A stretch of DNA of 42,769 nt, taken from assembly GCA_023511855.1 (NCBI GenBank), contig JAIMAR010000007.1:1-42769 (forward strand). Reading direction: 5' to 3'. The position numbers were made by a program, and so were the translations under genes. Shown piece after piece: positions 4,893-41,076 of the stretch (positions are counted from its first letter, which is position 1; the number at the start of each line of letters is the position of its first letter). Below the pieces are notes generated by a model that was given only the letters and a program-made list of their open reading frames with translations, was not told the DNA's origin and ran no database searches. The DNA is from Bryobacteraceae bacterium. GTDB taxonomy: Bacteria; Acidobacteriota; Terriglobia; Bryobacterales; Bryobacteraceae.

Positions 4893-7472
4893 ATGAAGCC
4901 AATCCACCGCTACCTCGTTATCCCCTCGCTGCCGCCGGCGCTGGAGCCTTTGCGGAAGATCGCCTACAATTTGCGCTGGAGCTGGGATCACGACACCATT
5001 GAACTGTTCCGGCGGCTGGACCGCGAGCTTTGGGAATCGAGCGGCCATAACCCGGTCCGCATGCTCGGCGAGGTCAGCCAGGCCACACTGCAACAGGCGG
5101 CGCACAACCAAGCCTTCCTGGCGCACATGCACCGGATCGCCGCCGAACTGGATCAGTACCTCAACGATCCTTCCAGTTGGTACCGGCGCACCCTACCGCA
5201 ATTCACGGACTGCACGGTGGCGTACTTCTCGGCGGAGTTCGGCCTGACTGAGTGCCTGTCGATCTTCGCCGGCGGGCTTGGAATCCTGGCCGGCGACCAC
5301 TTGAAATCCGCCAGCGACCTTGGGCTCAACCTAACCGGCGTGGGCCTTCTGTACCAGCAGGGCTATTTCCGGCAGTATCTCAACGAAGCGGGCTGGCAAC
5401 AGGAGCGCTACGTCGACAACGATTTTCAGAACTTGCCGCTGATCCCCGTGCGGCGGCCCGATGGGGCACGGCTGCGAGTGACGGTGGAAGTGGCGGGCCG
5501 TGCGGCCCACGCTCAGATCTGGCGCGTCGACGTGGGGCGGGTTCAGCTATACCTTTTGGACACGAACATTGCGGAAAACGAGCGCCCTGAAGAGCGCGAC
5601 ATCACAGATCAGCTCTATGGCGGCGATCAGGAGATGCGGCTCAAGCAGGAAATCCTTCTGGGCATCGGCGGCTACCGCGCTCTGGAAGCACTGGGACTGA
5701 AGCCCATCGTCTACCACATGAACGAGGGCCACTCGGCGTTCCTTTCACTGGAACACATCCGGCGCCTGATGGAGAATTACGGGCTGAGTTTCGAGGAAGC
5801 ACGGCTGCTGGCGCAAAGCAGCCTGGTGTTCACCGGGCACACGCCGGTCATGGCCGGCCATGACTTCTTCCCGCCGGAGCTTATGGACCGATACTTCGCG
5901 TCTTACTATCCTTTGCTAGGCCTCAGCCGACCCGAGTTCCTGGCCCTCGGACGGCAGAATCCCGCCGATGAGCGGGAGCCGTTCTGCATGACGGTGTTGG
6001 CGCTGCGCATGTCGGCCTTCCGCAACGGCGTCAGCAAGCTGCACGGGGAGGTGAGCCGGCGCATGTGGCAGGGCCTTTGGCCCAAGGTTCCCCTGAATGA
6101 GATCCCGATCGGGCACGTCACCAACGGAGTGCACTTCCGGAGCTGGATCTCGTACGAGATGAACCAGCTCTATGATCGCTATCTTGGACCGGAGTGGCGC
6201 GAAGAGCCCTTTCACGAAGGGCTGTGGGCCAGAGCTGAATCCATTCCCCCCGAGGAGCTTTGGCGGACGCACGAGCGTCGGCGCGAGCGCCTGGTGGCTT
6301 TTGCGCGCCGGCGCCTGGCTGAGCAGCTCAAGGCGCGCGGGGCCGGCCCGGCCGAAATCGCCGCGGCGGCCGAAGCCCTCGACCCGGACGCCCTCACCAT
6401 CGGCTTCGCCCGCCGCTTCGCCACCTACAAACGCGCCACCCTTTTGCTGCGCGATCCGGCGCGCCTGGGGCGCCTGCTCAATCAGCCCGGACGCCCCGTG
6501 CAGGTCATTTTTGCCGGCAAGGCGCATCCCCGCGACGAGCTGGGCAAAGAGCTGATCCGCCAGATTGTAGCTTTGGCGCGCACCAGCGAATTCCGCAGGA
6601 GGATCGTCTTCCTCGAGGAATACGACCTGGCTGTGGCGCGCTATCTGGTTCAAGGTTGCGACGTCTGGCTCAATAACCCGCGCCGCCCCATGGAAGCCAG
6701 CGGGACCAGCGGCATGAAAGCCGCCGCCAACGGGGCGCTCAATCTCAGCACTCTGGACGGCTGGTGGGACGAAGCCTGGAGCGACTGCCGGACGGCCCAA
6801 GCGGGCTGGGCCATCGGCCGCGGGGAGGTTTACGCCAGCGCCGAGGAGCAGGATGCCGTGGAAGCCGAGGCGCTCTACGATTTGCTAGAGCGGGAGGTCG
6901 TGCCCGCATTCTATGACCGCGGGCCGGACCGGCTCCCGCGCCGCTGGATCGCCCGGATGACTGCTTCCTTGTCGTGCCTGTGCCCCCAGTACAACACGCA
7001 TCGCATGGTGCGCCAGTACACCGAGGACTTCTACGTGATCGCCTACGATCGGTTTCTTGCCTTGGGCGCCGACAACGCGGCCCGAGCTAGAAGTTTGGCG
7101 GCTTGGGTCGCCCGCCTTCGCCGGGCATGGGGCGAAGTGCGCGTGGAGAGCATCGAGAATCACACTCCGGATACGATCACCGTGGGCCAAGCGGCCAAGG
7201 CCCGGATCCGCGTACGTTTAGGTCAACTCGATCCGCAAGACGTCATCGTAGAGTTGTACGAAGGCCGTGTGGACTCCGAGGGGGAAATTCTGGATGCCGT
7301 GCCCGTCGCCATGGAGGCGGTGGAACCAGCGGGCCCCGGCGTTTATATCTATGAAGCGGTCTCGCGGCCCGCGGCCGCCAGCGGATTACGCGGCTTCACC
7401 GTGCGGGTGCTGCCCTTCCACCCGGATCTGCCGGACCCCTTGCTTCCCAGCCTGATTGCTTGGGCGGAGTAA
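4893..7472 (+). CDS. glgP: Alpha-glucan (glycogen) phosphorylase, DUF3417-containing type
   Basis: This 859-residue enzyme releases glucose-1-phosphate from glycogen or maltodextrin. It is the short bacterial/archaeal type: residues 1 to about 110 are the DUF3417 region (LRKIAYNLRWSWDHD), followed by the phosphorylase core with EFGLTECLSIFAGGLGILAGDHLKSA, MNEGHSAF and GHTPVMAGHD. The pyridoxal-phosphate site is EASGTSGMKAAANGALN with the lysine at about residue 609. The C-terminal ~130 residues form a beta-rich extension usual in this subgroup. Length is full. The start follows AGGAAGGCG at about 4880, an adequate ribosome site; TACAGT at 4863-4868 could be the -10. It is monocistronic and convergent with acs. 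No glycogen synthase or branching enzyme gene is nearby, so its pathway partners lie elsewhere. Confidence 0.93.
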   Translation: MKPIHRYLVIPSLPPALEPLRKIAYNLRWSWDHDTIELFRRLDRELWESSGHNPVRMLGEVSQATLQQAAHNQAFLAHMHRIAAELDQYLNDPSSWYRRTLPQFTDCTVAYFSAEFGLTECLSIFAGGLGILAGDHLKSASDLGLNLTGVGLLYQQGYFRQYLNEAGWQQERYVDNDFQNLPLIPVRRPDGARLRVTVEVAGRAAHAQIWRVDVGRVQLYLLDTNIAENERPEERDITDQLYGGDQEMRLKQEILLGIGGYRALEALGLKPIVYHMNEGHSAFLSLEHIRRLMENYGLSFEEARLLAQSSLVFTGHTPVMAGHDFFPPELMDRYFASYYPLLGLSRPEFLALGRQNPADEREPFCMTVLALRMSAFRNGVSKLHGEVSRRMWQGLWPKVPLNEIPIGHVTNGVHFRSWISYEMNQLYDRYLGPEWREEPFHEGLWARAESIPPEELWRTHERRRERLVAFARRRLAEQLKARGAGPAEIAAAAEALDPDALTIGFARRFATYKRATLLLRDPARLGRLLNQPGRPVQVIFAGKAHPRDELGKELIRQIVALARTSEFRRRIVFLEEYDLAVARYLVQGCDVWLNNPRRPMEASGTSGMKAAANGALNLSTLDGWWDEAWSDCRTAQAGWAIGRGEVYASAEEQDAVEAEALYDLLEREVVPAFYDRGPDRLPRRWIARMTASLSCLCPQYNTHRMVRQYTEDFYVIAYDRFLALGADNAARARSLAAWVARLRRAWGEVRVESIENHTPDTITVGQAAKARIRVRLGQLDPQDVIVELYEGRVDSEGEILDAVPVAMEAVEPAGPGVYIYEAVSRPAAASGLRGFTVRVLPFHPDLPDPLLPSLIAWAE

Positions 7473-38437: not shown

Positions 38438-39127
38438 TTATAGTTCATCCCCGGAGGGTTCATCGAGGCGCACCACGAACACCGCGCCGAACTCCGGCCG
38501 CAATTGCGCCGCCAGGATCCGGGCCTGCTCCTCGCTTGTCTCCTCTCCGATCAACACTCGCCAGAGCACCGTGGGGCCGTCGCGCTTCACCAGACGGCAG
38601 TGCCGGTATTGCGCTTGCAGCCTGCGGCGCATGCGCTCGGCGTTGTCCCGGTTCAGATAGGCGCCGACCTGAACCGCGAACCGTCCGCCCGCGGCGGCTG
38701 GACCGGAGACGACCTGCACGCGCACCTTCACGATTCCCGCCCGCACCATGTCGATCTCCCGCGCTGCCGCCAGCGAAAGGTCGATGATCCTTCCGTCGAC
38801 GAACGGCCCGCGGTCGGTGATGCGCACGCGCACGCGCTTGCGGTTGTCGAGGTTGGTCACTTCCACCCAGGTGCCGAAGGGAAGCGTCCGGTGCGCGGCG
38901 GTGAGCTTCTCCATGTCATAGATCTCACCGCTGGCGGTGCGCCGCCCGTGATAGGGATGGCCGTACCAACTGGCGATGCCGGTCTCCACGGCGCCGGGAC
39001 GCGCGGCCGCCGGCGCCGGCAGTCTTCGCTTCTTGCGACAACCCGCGGCCGCCGCGCAGCCGATCAGCAGCCAGAGCGCGCGGCGGCGGTCCAGCTCGGA
39101 AGCATTCATTGCGGGCGCCGGAGCCAT
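38438..39127 (-). CDS. rlpA: RlpA-like septal-ring lipoprotein with SPOR domain
   Basis: A 229-residue protein. After a short N-terminus comes ALWLLIGC with a lipobox-like LIGC, so it is probably a lipoprotein. The double-psi beta-barrel (about 48-135) has [37 protein letters not shown] and [20 protein letters not shown], typical of RlpA. The C-terminal SPOR domain (about 148-228, [18 protein letters not shown]) binds glycan strands lacking peptide stems at the division septum. In Pseudomonas RlpA is a lytic transglycosylase for such glycans. Start choice is uncertain: 39127 fits a TTTAAT -10-like hexamer at 39135-39140; 39136 and 39109 are alternatives. It heads the run with the sigma-54 activator and glycosyltransferase genes. 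Confidence 0.9.
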
Positions 39128-39218
39128 CTCCTCCATTAAAACAATTTCTGCGCAGCTCGTTTTTGCCGGATCCACTCCCCTCCGGAAAAGATTTTTTCGG
39201 CCTCCATGCATTTTTCTC

Positions 39219-39247
39219 TTGACTTTCGGCAAGAATGACTTTATATA
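39219..39247 (+). promoter_or_regulatory. Consensus promoter of the lysine-rich mini-gene
   Basis: TTGACT (39219-39224) and TATATA (39242-39247) are separated by exactly 17 bases, one of the two best promoters in the window. Transcription would start near 39254, giving a 53-base leader and a transcript of about 200 bases ending at the terminator at 39425. Confidence 0.85.
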
Positions 39248-39258
39248 TGAATCACGCT

Positions 39259-39277
39259 GCGATCTTTTCTGGATCGC
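39259..39277 (+). promoter_or_regulatory. Hairpin at the 5' end of the mini-gene transcript
   Basis: GCGATC (39259-39264) pairs with GATCGC (39272-39277) around a 7-base loop. It would form directly after the expected transcription start, a place where it could protect the mRNA. Confidence 0.45.
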
Positions 39278-39306
39278 GCAAATCTGATGTTTGGGAGAAT
39301 CAATCG

Positions 39307-39381
39307 ATGAAGAACGCAACGAAGAAGGCTGCAAAGCCGGCCAAGAAGAAGGCTGCAAAGCCCGCCAAGAAGAAGAAGTAA
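39307..39381 (+). CDS. 24-residue lysine/alanine-rich basic peptide
   Basis: A complete short gene: ATG at 39307, stop TAA at 39379-39381. The product is almost only Lys, Ala and Pro: MKNATKK, then two copies of AAKPAKK, then a KK tail. Thirteen of 24 residues are lysine. It resembles the tails of histone H1-like and HU-like nucleoid proteins, so nucleic-acid binding is a reasonable inference. GGGAGAA lies about nine bases upstream as ribosome site. A near-consensus promoter precedes it and an intrinsic terminator follows, so it is an independent transcription unit probably expressed strongly. The repeat is also visible in DNA. Alternatively the transcript could act as a small RNA. A second small GC hairpin lies at 39389-39402. 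Confidence 0.75.
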
Positions 39382-39424
39382 GCGAGGCGCCCCGCACGGG
39401 GCAGCAGCAACAGAAGGATCAACC

Positions 39425-39457
39425 GAGGCCCCCGGCAACGGGGGCCTCTTTTAGTTT
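39425..39457 (+). terminator. Intrinsic terminator of the mini-gene
   Basis: GAGGCCCCC (39425-39433), six-base loop, GGGGGCCTC (39440-39448), then TTTTAGTTT. A perfect 9-base GC stem with T tract. The tract overlaps the stop codon of the convergent midA gene. Confidence 0.92.
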
Positions 39458-40443
39458 CTTGGGGGCTTGTACTGGAGCAGCGCGCGGAATGTCTCGCCGA
39501 ATCCGAACAGCAGCGTCTTGAGCTGGAGCCTGCGCCGCAGCCTTTCCGCTTCCGTGGGGGCGCTCAGAGCGGTCGCGAATCCATCGGCCTCGCCCGCCGC
39601 CGCCAGCGCCGCCGCCAAGGACTCGAACCGGACCGTTTGCAAGCCGAGCCGTTCGCCGTGCAGTTGGAGAGCGGTGAACGCCACGTGCGCAGTGATGTCC
39701 TGCTCTCCAGGATCCGCCCAAACGTCCTCGAGGGCCGTGTGCCTCCGGTAGCTCATCAGCGTCCCCTGGGGGAAGCGGAGAAGCTCGCGCGAGGTGTAGC
39801 CGTAATCGATGGTGAACACGTAGCCCGACTCCAGCCGTTCGGCGATCCGATCCATCCAGCGCAGGGCCTCCAGACCGATCTCAACCCAAGCCTCATCGGC
39901 GGCTTGCATGAGGTACCGCTCGGCGTAGGCGGCGTGTTCGCCGCTCAGCGGGGGGCCTTCGGTCCAGCGGAAGCGGCCGTCCCGCCAGTCCACAAGCATC
40001 TCGACAAACTCAGCGCCCCGGCGCACAGCGACGTCCACCGGCAGCGCATCGAAGAACTCGTTGCTGAAAACGACTCCGCGAAAACGCTTCGGCCAATCCG
40101 ATGAGCCGAGTTCCACCGGGCAATAGCGGAACTCGCGCAGCGCGTCGGCCATCTCCATCCGGCCTGCCCCCAGCTCCACGACGGTGAAGTCCTCGGGTTC
40201 GCCCATCTCGCTTCGCAGCCGTCGGAGGATGGCGGCCACCAGGATCCCGAATACCGGCTGGAGTTGCTCGGCGGTGAAGTAGTCGCCCCGCTTGCCGAAA
40301 GGATCCCGGCCGCGGCGGTAGTAGCCAACTTCCGGGTGATACAACGCGATCTCCATGAACCGGCTGAAGCGCAGCGGCCCGCTGCGGGCGATCTCTTCCC
40401 GGAGCAGGGAAGCGGCGGAAGCGGTGGGACCGGGGCGGTTCAT
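39451..40443 (-). CDS. MidA/NDUFAF7-family SAM-dependent methyltransferase
   Basis: A 330-residue class-I methyltransferase of the COG1565 (MidA) family. In mitochondria the relative NDUFAF7 methylates an arginine in a complex I subunit; the bacterial substrate is less clear. The family N-terminus is clear: LLREEIARSGPLRFSRFMEIALYHPEVGYYRRG, then GKRGDYFTAEQLQPVFG. The SAM motif is VVELGAGRMEMA, followed by VVFSNEFFDALPVDV, FTIDYGYTSREL, GTLMSYRRHT and DITAHVAFTAL. Length is typical. The start at 40443 (MNRPG) is preferred over 40458 because a TAGTAT -10-like hexamer (40457-40462 on the minus strand) overlaps the earlier ATG. It is divergent from the 40474 gene. Confidence 0.88.
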   Translation of the reverse strand: MNRPGPTASAASLLREEIARSGPLRFSRFMEIALYHPEVGYYRRGRDPFGKRGDYFTAEQLQPVFGILVAAILRRLRSEMGEPEDFTVVELGAGRMEMADALREFRYCPVELGSSDWPKRFRGVVFSNEFFDALPVDVAVRRGAEFVEMLVDWRDGRFRWTEGPPLSGEHAAYAERYLMQAADEAWVEIGLEALRWMDRIAERLESGYVFTIDYGYTSRELLRFPQGTLMSYRRHTALEDVWADPGEQDITAHVAFTALQLHGERLGLQTVRFESLAAALAAAGEADGFATALSAPTEAERLRRRLQLKTLLFGFGETFRALLQYKPPRN

Positions 40444-40455
40444 CGTCGCATTTGC

Positions 40456-40462
40456 CATACTA
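40456..40462. promoter_or_regulatory. Overlapping divergent -10 elements
   Basis: The same seven bases read CATACT on the plus strand (40456-40461, towards 40474) and TAGTAT on the minus strand (40457-40462, towards midA). The starts are only 30 bases apart, so both leaders would be very short and the promoters mutually exclusive. Confidence 0.4.
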
Positions 40463-40473
40463 GCAGCGTAGGG

Positions 40474-41076
40474 ATGCGGTTGCCGGAAACGATCCGAGTC
40501 AAGCTGAGCAGCGAGGAAGCCGGCGCGATTTCCATGACTCCGGTTCTGAGCCGCGAGATGCCGCTGCGCGAGCTGGTGGAGTTGATGCTGGACTTCACCG
40601 GCAAAGACCCCGCCAGGGTGCACGAACTCCTGTTGCGGGGGACTCTCGTGATTGGCGCCTCCCGTTACCGCTGGTCCGGTTGGGATGCCGATCTGGAGGA
40701 GCTGACGGAGATGCTCGGCCTGCTGCCGGCTCCGCAGCCCGAGCGGCTCTTTGATCCGGATCATTGCGTACGTCTCATCCTCCTCGGCCCAGCCTTGCGC
40801 GTGGAGATCGGCAAACAGTCGGTCTGTGAGCGGCGGTTTCTTCGGCCACGCAGTTTCTGGGATGCGCTCATGGAGATCGCCGGCGAATGTGGGCTGGCTT
40901 ACGCCGGCTACAGCTACCGCGAACGCGCCGACCGCTACCGGTTGGAGATCAGCGCATCCCTGGCCGCCCGCCTCGCTTCCAGCGCCACCCTGCTCCGCTA
41001 CACCCGCCTCGGCGAGCACTTTCGCAACGGCTCGGTCGAGCGGATCGAGTTCCTGGTGGAACGAACCAACGCCTGA
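40474..41076 (+). CDS. Conserved-looking protein of unknown function
   Basis: A 200-residue soluble protein with no signal peptide or membrane segment. It begins RLPETIRVKLSSEEAGAISMTPVLSREMPLRELVELMLDFTGKDPARV, an N-terminal domain with a regulator-like helix. It continues LLRGTLVIGASRYRWSGWDADLEELTEMLGLLP and a C-terminal part rich in Arg and aromatic residues (EIAGECGLAYAGYSYRERADRYRLEISASL). No catalytic pattern is evident. The frame is open upstream, but that part is antisense to midA. GTAGGG lies directly before the ATG and CATACT at 40456-40461 suggests a nearly leaderless start. Another unknown gene follows after 40 bases. I do not recognise a family. Confidence 0.7.
   Translation: MRLPETIRVKLSSEEAGAISMTPVLSREMPLRELVELMLDFTGKDPARVHELLLRGTLVIGASRYRWSGWDADLEELTEMLGLLPAPQPERLFDPDHCVRLILLGPALRVEIGKQSVCERRFLRPRSFWDALMEIAGECGLAYAGYSYRERADRYRLEISASLAARLASSATLLRYTRLGEHFRNGSVERIEFLVERTNA

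Follow-up and report, generated by a model that had tools for sequence, protein, structure and literature searches.

A small transcription unit in the window (the whole 42,769-nt stretch of DNA analysed here) encodes a lysine-rich peptide of 24 residues, and comparison of its sequences across relatives is best explained by a single-copy, family-specific core small-protein gene of the Bryobacteraceae. We lean towards the view that this locus produces a small mRNA by strong, constitutive transcription, and that this mRNA yields an abundant peptide that resembles a histone H1 tail and would bind nucleic acid.

A self-contained transcription unit

The original prediction described a promoter, a leader hairpin, a ribosome site, a 24-aa frame with two AAKPAKK units and a terminator, and direct reading located every one of these elements where it had been claimed. 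The unit and its neighbours are laid out as follows.

39207-39218, + strand: T-rich, UP-element-like stretch TGCATTTTTCTC, directly 5' of the -35 box (cat-TTTT-.-tC before TTGAC across 35 aligned units)
39219-39247, + strand: promoter TTGACT-17 nt-TATATA, read directly (TTGACT 39219-39224, TATATA 39242-39247)
39258-39278, + strand: leader hairpin with a 7-nt loop (stem GCGATC 39259-39264 / GATCGC 39272-39277)
39293-39297, + strand: ribosome-binding site GGGAG, with 9 nt between its GGAG and the ATG at 39307
39307-39381, + strand: ORF of 24 aa plus TAA, with two AAKPAKK units, open in all 121 distinct units
39389-39402, + strand: post-stop hairpin GCCCC-GCAC-GGGGC, with a comparable stem at the same position in relatives
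39425-39453, + strand: Rho-independent terminator, stem 39425-39448 (10 pairs including 9 G-C) plus T tract
38438-39109, - strand: divergent neighbour, RlpA-like lytic transglycosylase with SPOR domain (Pfam DPBB_1 and SPOR)
39451-40620, - strand: convergent neighbour, MidA-like methyltransferase (Pfam Methyltransf_28)

The T-rich stretch at 39207-39218 may serve as an UP element. The 4.1-Mb genome contains just two matches to TTGACW-N17-TATAWA, one being the promoter of the peptide gene and the other a site that appears to be intragenic, within a coding stretch. A generic promoter scan left the peptide-gene promoter out of its output because that scan accepts only T as the final base of the -10 box. 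The predicted 209-nt transcript folds 2.7 standard deviations better than shuffled sequences (z -2.7). The post-stop hairpin at 39389-39402 had been absent from the earlier description of the unit.

The same architecture recurs in relatives. Across 121 distinct units, the set over which all coding and unit statistics were computed, a matching promoter is present in 120, with a 17-nt spacer in 115, and GGAG lies 8-11 nt from the ATG in every unit (9 nt in 101). Consensus folding of 35 sequences with RNAalifold gave a leader stem of 7 pairs, 5 of them with compensatory changes, and the score of this stem exceeds its own shuffle mean in 114/121 units. A post-stop stem, ~7-23 nt past the stop codon, is found in 86% of units vs 25% of shuffles, and a terminator follows in 115 units at a median of 40 nt past the stop. 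No Rfam covariance model matched the unit above its gathering score.

Within the window, the codons ATG TTT GGG AGA ATC AAT CGA TGA at 39287-39310 form a short upstream ORF that overlaps the peptide start codon as ATGA. This start overlap recurs in 62/95 units, the upstream ORF is in frame with the main ORF in 31/95, neither arrangement holds in 2/95, and the upstream ATG is missing from 26 of the 121 units; the upstream ORF (ATG TTA GGG AGA ATC AAT CGA TGA) is therefore not conserved as a frame and was rejected as such.

Genomic neighbourhood

In 77 of the 121 units the gene for the RlpA-SPOR protein lies upstream and divergent, on the same side and strand, and in 58 the gene for the MidA-like methyltransferase lies downstream and convergent; several loci end too early or have diverged too far for these neighbours to be recognised. 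Wherever found, both flanking genes are on the strand opposite to the unit. These divergent and convergent neighbours make the unit monocistronic and leave no place for an attenuator leader. A short lysine-rich ORF followed by a terminator is what would be expected of a leader peptide whose Lys codons control a downstream gene, but in none of the 58 units in which a midA-like gene was found does that gene share the strand of the peptide ORF, and no antiterminator structure was seen. We accordingly rejected the attenuator reading, which is extremely improbable, on the ground that the downstream gene is convergent.

Distribution across genomes

A covariance model of the leader (R1) matched 216 of 237 Bryobacteraceae genomes, including 142 of the 148 of good quality, with 74 of 76 genera positive and a single match per genome in every listed genome of the family except one. 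The claim of a self-contained unit with strong signals is thus borne out by comparison, its layout being kept in these 216 genomes. A DNA search of relatives delimited the conserved stretch: running from ~12 nt before the -35 box to the stop codon, it is present in almost every Bryobacteraceae genome. Beyond the family, all 65 genomes positive for the leader model in an even draw of the class are Bryobacteraceae, and no unit was found with this model in the other families of the draw. An order-wide DNA search was positive in 194/257 genomes, and all among those listed are Bryobacteraceae. The DNA search also found a unit with an 18-aa peptide in one genome of family f2 of the same order (G037, L034). 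In a phylum-wide pattern search the unit was confined to Bryobacteraceae, and two further matches were unrelated coding stretches. A pattern built from the ribosome site and the first codons matched records titled Bryobacterales, Bryobacteraceae, Solibacteraceae, Terriglobia or Acidobacteria MAGs, together with some off-target matches that lack the promoter.

Two public contigs with other titles carry the unit, CALQCC020000009.1 (titled Bordetella parapertussis; L094) and VFZE01000011.1 (titled Acidimicrobiia; L092). Both are apparently mislabelled MAG records, corresponding to the family genomes G024:C9 and G031:C11. A search of phages and plasmids gave no match to the unit, and a mobile-element origin was rejected on this basis.

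Selection on the encoded peptide

The ORF is open in 121/121 distinct units, and all length differences are whole codons, with 18-27 aa the commonest range. Codon 4 specifies Ala in every unit (GCA, GCG or GCT), codon 7 Lys in 120 (AAA 61, AAG 59) and codon 5 Thr in 114, with all four Thr codons used. Pairwise differences over codons 2-7 number 2950, 3889 and 12255 at codon positions 1, 2 and 3, respectively, and this excess at third positions indicates selection on the peptide. The frame is thus conserved among relatives, the very point whose absence had been named beforehand as grounds for abandoning the prediction. That a frame of 24 codons, short as it is, arose by chance in an intergenic gap is hardly credible, and we rejected this explanation, given the conservation of the unit over 74 genera and the codon-position bias within the ORF.

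The ends of the peptide are conserved, with the start MK[N/S/Y]A[T/A]KK and the C-terminus KKK(K). Over the 121 peptides the composition is 48% Lys, 30% Ala, 6.6% Pro and 5% Thr; Asp, Glu, His, Ile and Trp do not occur, and the net charge ranges from +9 to +37. Most units encode 16-32 aa, and several lineages have lengthened peptides of 38, 46, 52, 66, 76, 79 or 87 aa built from the same K/A/P units. In genus g8, a related, weakly matching leader precedes H1-like proteins that measure 77 aa and, counting from a MATKK start, ~114 aa. We define the Bryobacteraceae 'MKNATKK' family by a covarying leader hairpin, GGAG, an ORF start MK-x-A-[TA]-KK, a Lys-rich end and a terminator, and the unit in the window has all of these features.

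Common gene callers usually apply a lower limit of 90 nt, and the peptide gene of most species is shorter. The suggestion that this is a real small gene easily missed by callers is in line with the comparative evidence: the gene is real and probably uncalled.

Relation to known proteins

Neither Pfam nor NCBIfam matched the peptide, even in its 79- and 87-aa forms, a test weakened by low complexity. The peptide family is described in none of the libraries searched (Pfam, NCBIfam, Rfam, PDB), and a literature search returned no paper on the sequence or on acidobacterial lysine-rich small proteins. The closest resemblance in character is to H1-like proteins with Lys/Ala/Pro repeats, such as the C-terminal domain of Pseudomonas AlgP, the PhaF tail, chlamydial Hc2 and the eukaryotic H1 tail, with which the peptide shares its composition, AAKPAKK-type repeats, a lack of acidic residues, a variable repeat number, and presumed disorder and polyanion binding. 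Unlike these proteins, it is in most species a complete free-standing product of 16-32 aa with no other domain, a fixed MKNATKK start and its own conserved leader RNA.

AlgP, whose tail is a Lys/Ala/Pro repeat, localises to polyphosphate granules and sets their spacing (PMC9239181). By analogy, the peptide could be an AlgP- or PhaF-like counter-ion or organiser of polyphosphate or storage granules. We regard this as quite unlikely, since AlgP has an extra N-terminal domain beside its tail whereas the peptide has none, and granule genes were not recognised adjoining the unit.

The peptide also invites comparison with the tiny ribosomal proteins bL37, of ~24 aa in Actinobacteria, and bS22, which are likewise confined to particular lineages, are readily overlooked in annotation and mostly go unannotated (PMC5876184, PMC10618245). 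Because a 24-aa bL37 exists, we weighed a lineage-specific ribosomal protein as an explanation; size and basic character are alike, and a single copy under a strong promoter would fit. In bL37, a helix occupies an rRNA pocket close to the peptidyl transferase centre (PMC5876184). In contrast, the peptide is low-complexity and variable in length, its K/A/P sequence shows no Arg, Gly or aromatic pattern, and its indels and repeat expansions of up to ~fourfold (16-87 aa) are ill-suited to a fixed rRNA pocket. A phmmer search gave no PDB sequence match to E 10, a weak test with a low-complexity query. We therefore consider a ribosomal protein unlikely; the variable length and repeat-like build suit a disordered polycation, or polyelectrolyte, and would argue against a fixed ribosomal pocket.

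Longer proteins with Lys/Ala repeats were encountered in the course of the analysis. The same genome encodes a 144-aa protein (L180; G000:C79, ~5029-5106, minus strand) whose N-terminal half is acidic and whose C-terminal half carries Lys/Ala repeats (MLVYRSMAFDDEDD...KKAVKKSAKKK), and a similar 104-aa protein is found in G057 of another family (L036). Sister family f3 has H1-like MAKKATKKAAP proteins of 54-116 aa. All share Lys/Ala repeat blocks with the peptide but are much longer and have a different leader, and no rlpA/midA synteny was found around any of them. In G053 of family f3 (L218, 15964-18006), a divergent gene for a 108-aa H1-like MAKKATKK protein starts ~320 nt upstream of trmFO, the only neighbour of shared type for the f3 H1-like protein (L039/L218); the window also has trmFO, at a distance of ~4 kb from the peptide gene. 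Distant synteny between the f3 gene at L218 and the peptide gene of the window is possible.

Loss of the peptide in genus g51

Genus g51 retains the peptide in 10 of its 19 species. An intact copy was not found in the other nine, eight of which are at least 94% complete, so the gene is not indispensable. In G078 (L211) and G080 (L212) the start codon is ACG and the frame is gone, and in G083 (L213) a deletion has removed the Lys codons as far as the terminator. Assembly errors could account for the single-base start changes taken by themselves, but not for the degraded coding bodies. In all three genomes the -35 box, the -10/initiation region and GGGAGAATC are at 100% of the genus consensus, the spacer varies as it does in intact g51 species, and in one of the three the hairpin has decayed. 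Six further g51 species have no unit at all. A search for a relocated peptide copy in the species that lost it found none.

Since three species keep the promoter, leader and SD without the peptide, a role for the RNA is conceivable. The RNA could be functional itself, either dual-function, as the original prediction also allowed, or mainly regulatory, with the hairpins and the GAUGUUAGGGAGAAUC stretch as an RNA element and the peptide as a partner or secondary product. Covariation of the leader hairpin and positional conservation of the post-stop hairpin are consistent with this, as is the breakage of the ORF in three ways in genomes that hold the promoter/initiation region and GGGAGAATC at consensus and have no copy elsewhere. 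However, codon-level selection is plain in nearly all other species, one decayed hairpin and six unit-less species are what ordinary stepwise loss would leave, and the retained elements are merely promoter and SD, which slow decay could explain. We consider a functional RNA doubtful, and for the g51 pattern we favour stepwise gene loss over retained RNA use. A related and equally tentative proposal is a dual-function locus that combines a conserved structured RNA with a polycationic micro-peptide, which would be the smallest stand-alone H1-like protein to condense chromatin or RNA; one genus would have dropped the peptide and kept the RNA signals.

Proposed role

Building on the unit, its conservation, the coding selection, the composition and the synteny observed here, we propose that the near-consensus sigma-70 promoter drives a monocistronic mRNA of ~200 nt. 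This transcript would begin with a stabilising hairpin at its 5' end and, beyond an open ribosome site and the ORF, would form a second hairpin after the stop codon before reaching its intrinsic terminator. Its signals suggest strong constitutive expression. The product would be disordered and polycationic, built from Lys, Ala, Pro and Thr, and comparable to a free-standing tail of the histone H1 or AlgP type. Such a peptide would bind polyanions, with nucleoid DNA, RNA or both as the likeliest targets, and may help to condense or screen them, although we infer the target, be it DNA, RNA or another polyanion, from sequence. Peptides of KPAA, a similar repeat, reportedly bind DNA in vitro (PMC9239181). 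Of the original idea of a histone-tail-like nucleic-acid-binding peptide, the fit of the sequence stood, the peptide being Lys/Ala/Pro-rich and free of acidic residues, and binding is the part that we infer. The g51 species in which promoter, leader and SD outlast the peptide would not be expected under a purely peptide-based role and count against this preferred explanation.

The Bryobacteraceae, an abundant family of soil bacteria within the Acidobacteriota, thus have a near-universal single-copy gene that matches no family searched. Expression at the level implied by its promoter would give these bacteria an abundant histone-tail-like peptide of minimal size. The minimal sequence for condensation of the nucleoid or of RNA would then be testable, with the length variants of 16-87 aa and the natural losses as controls.
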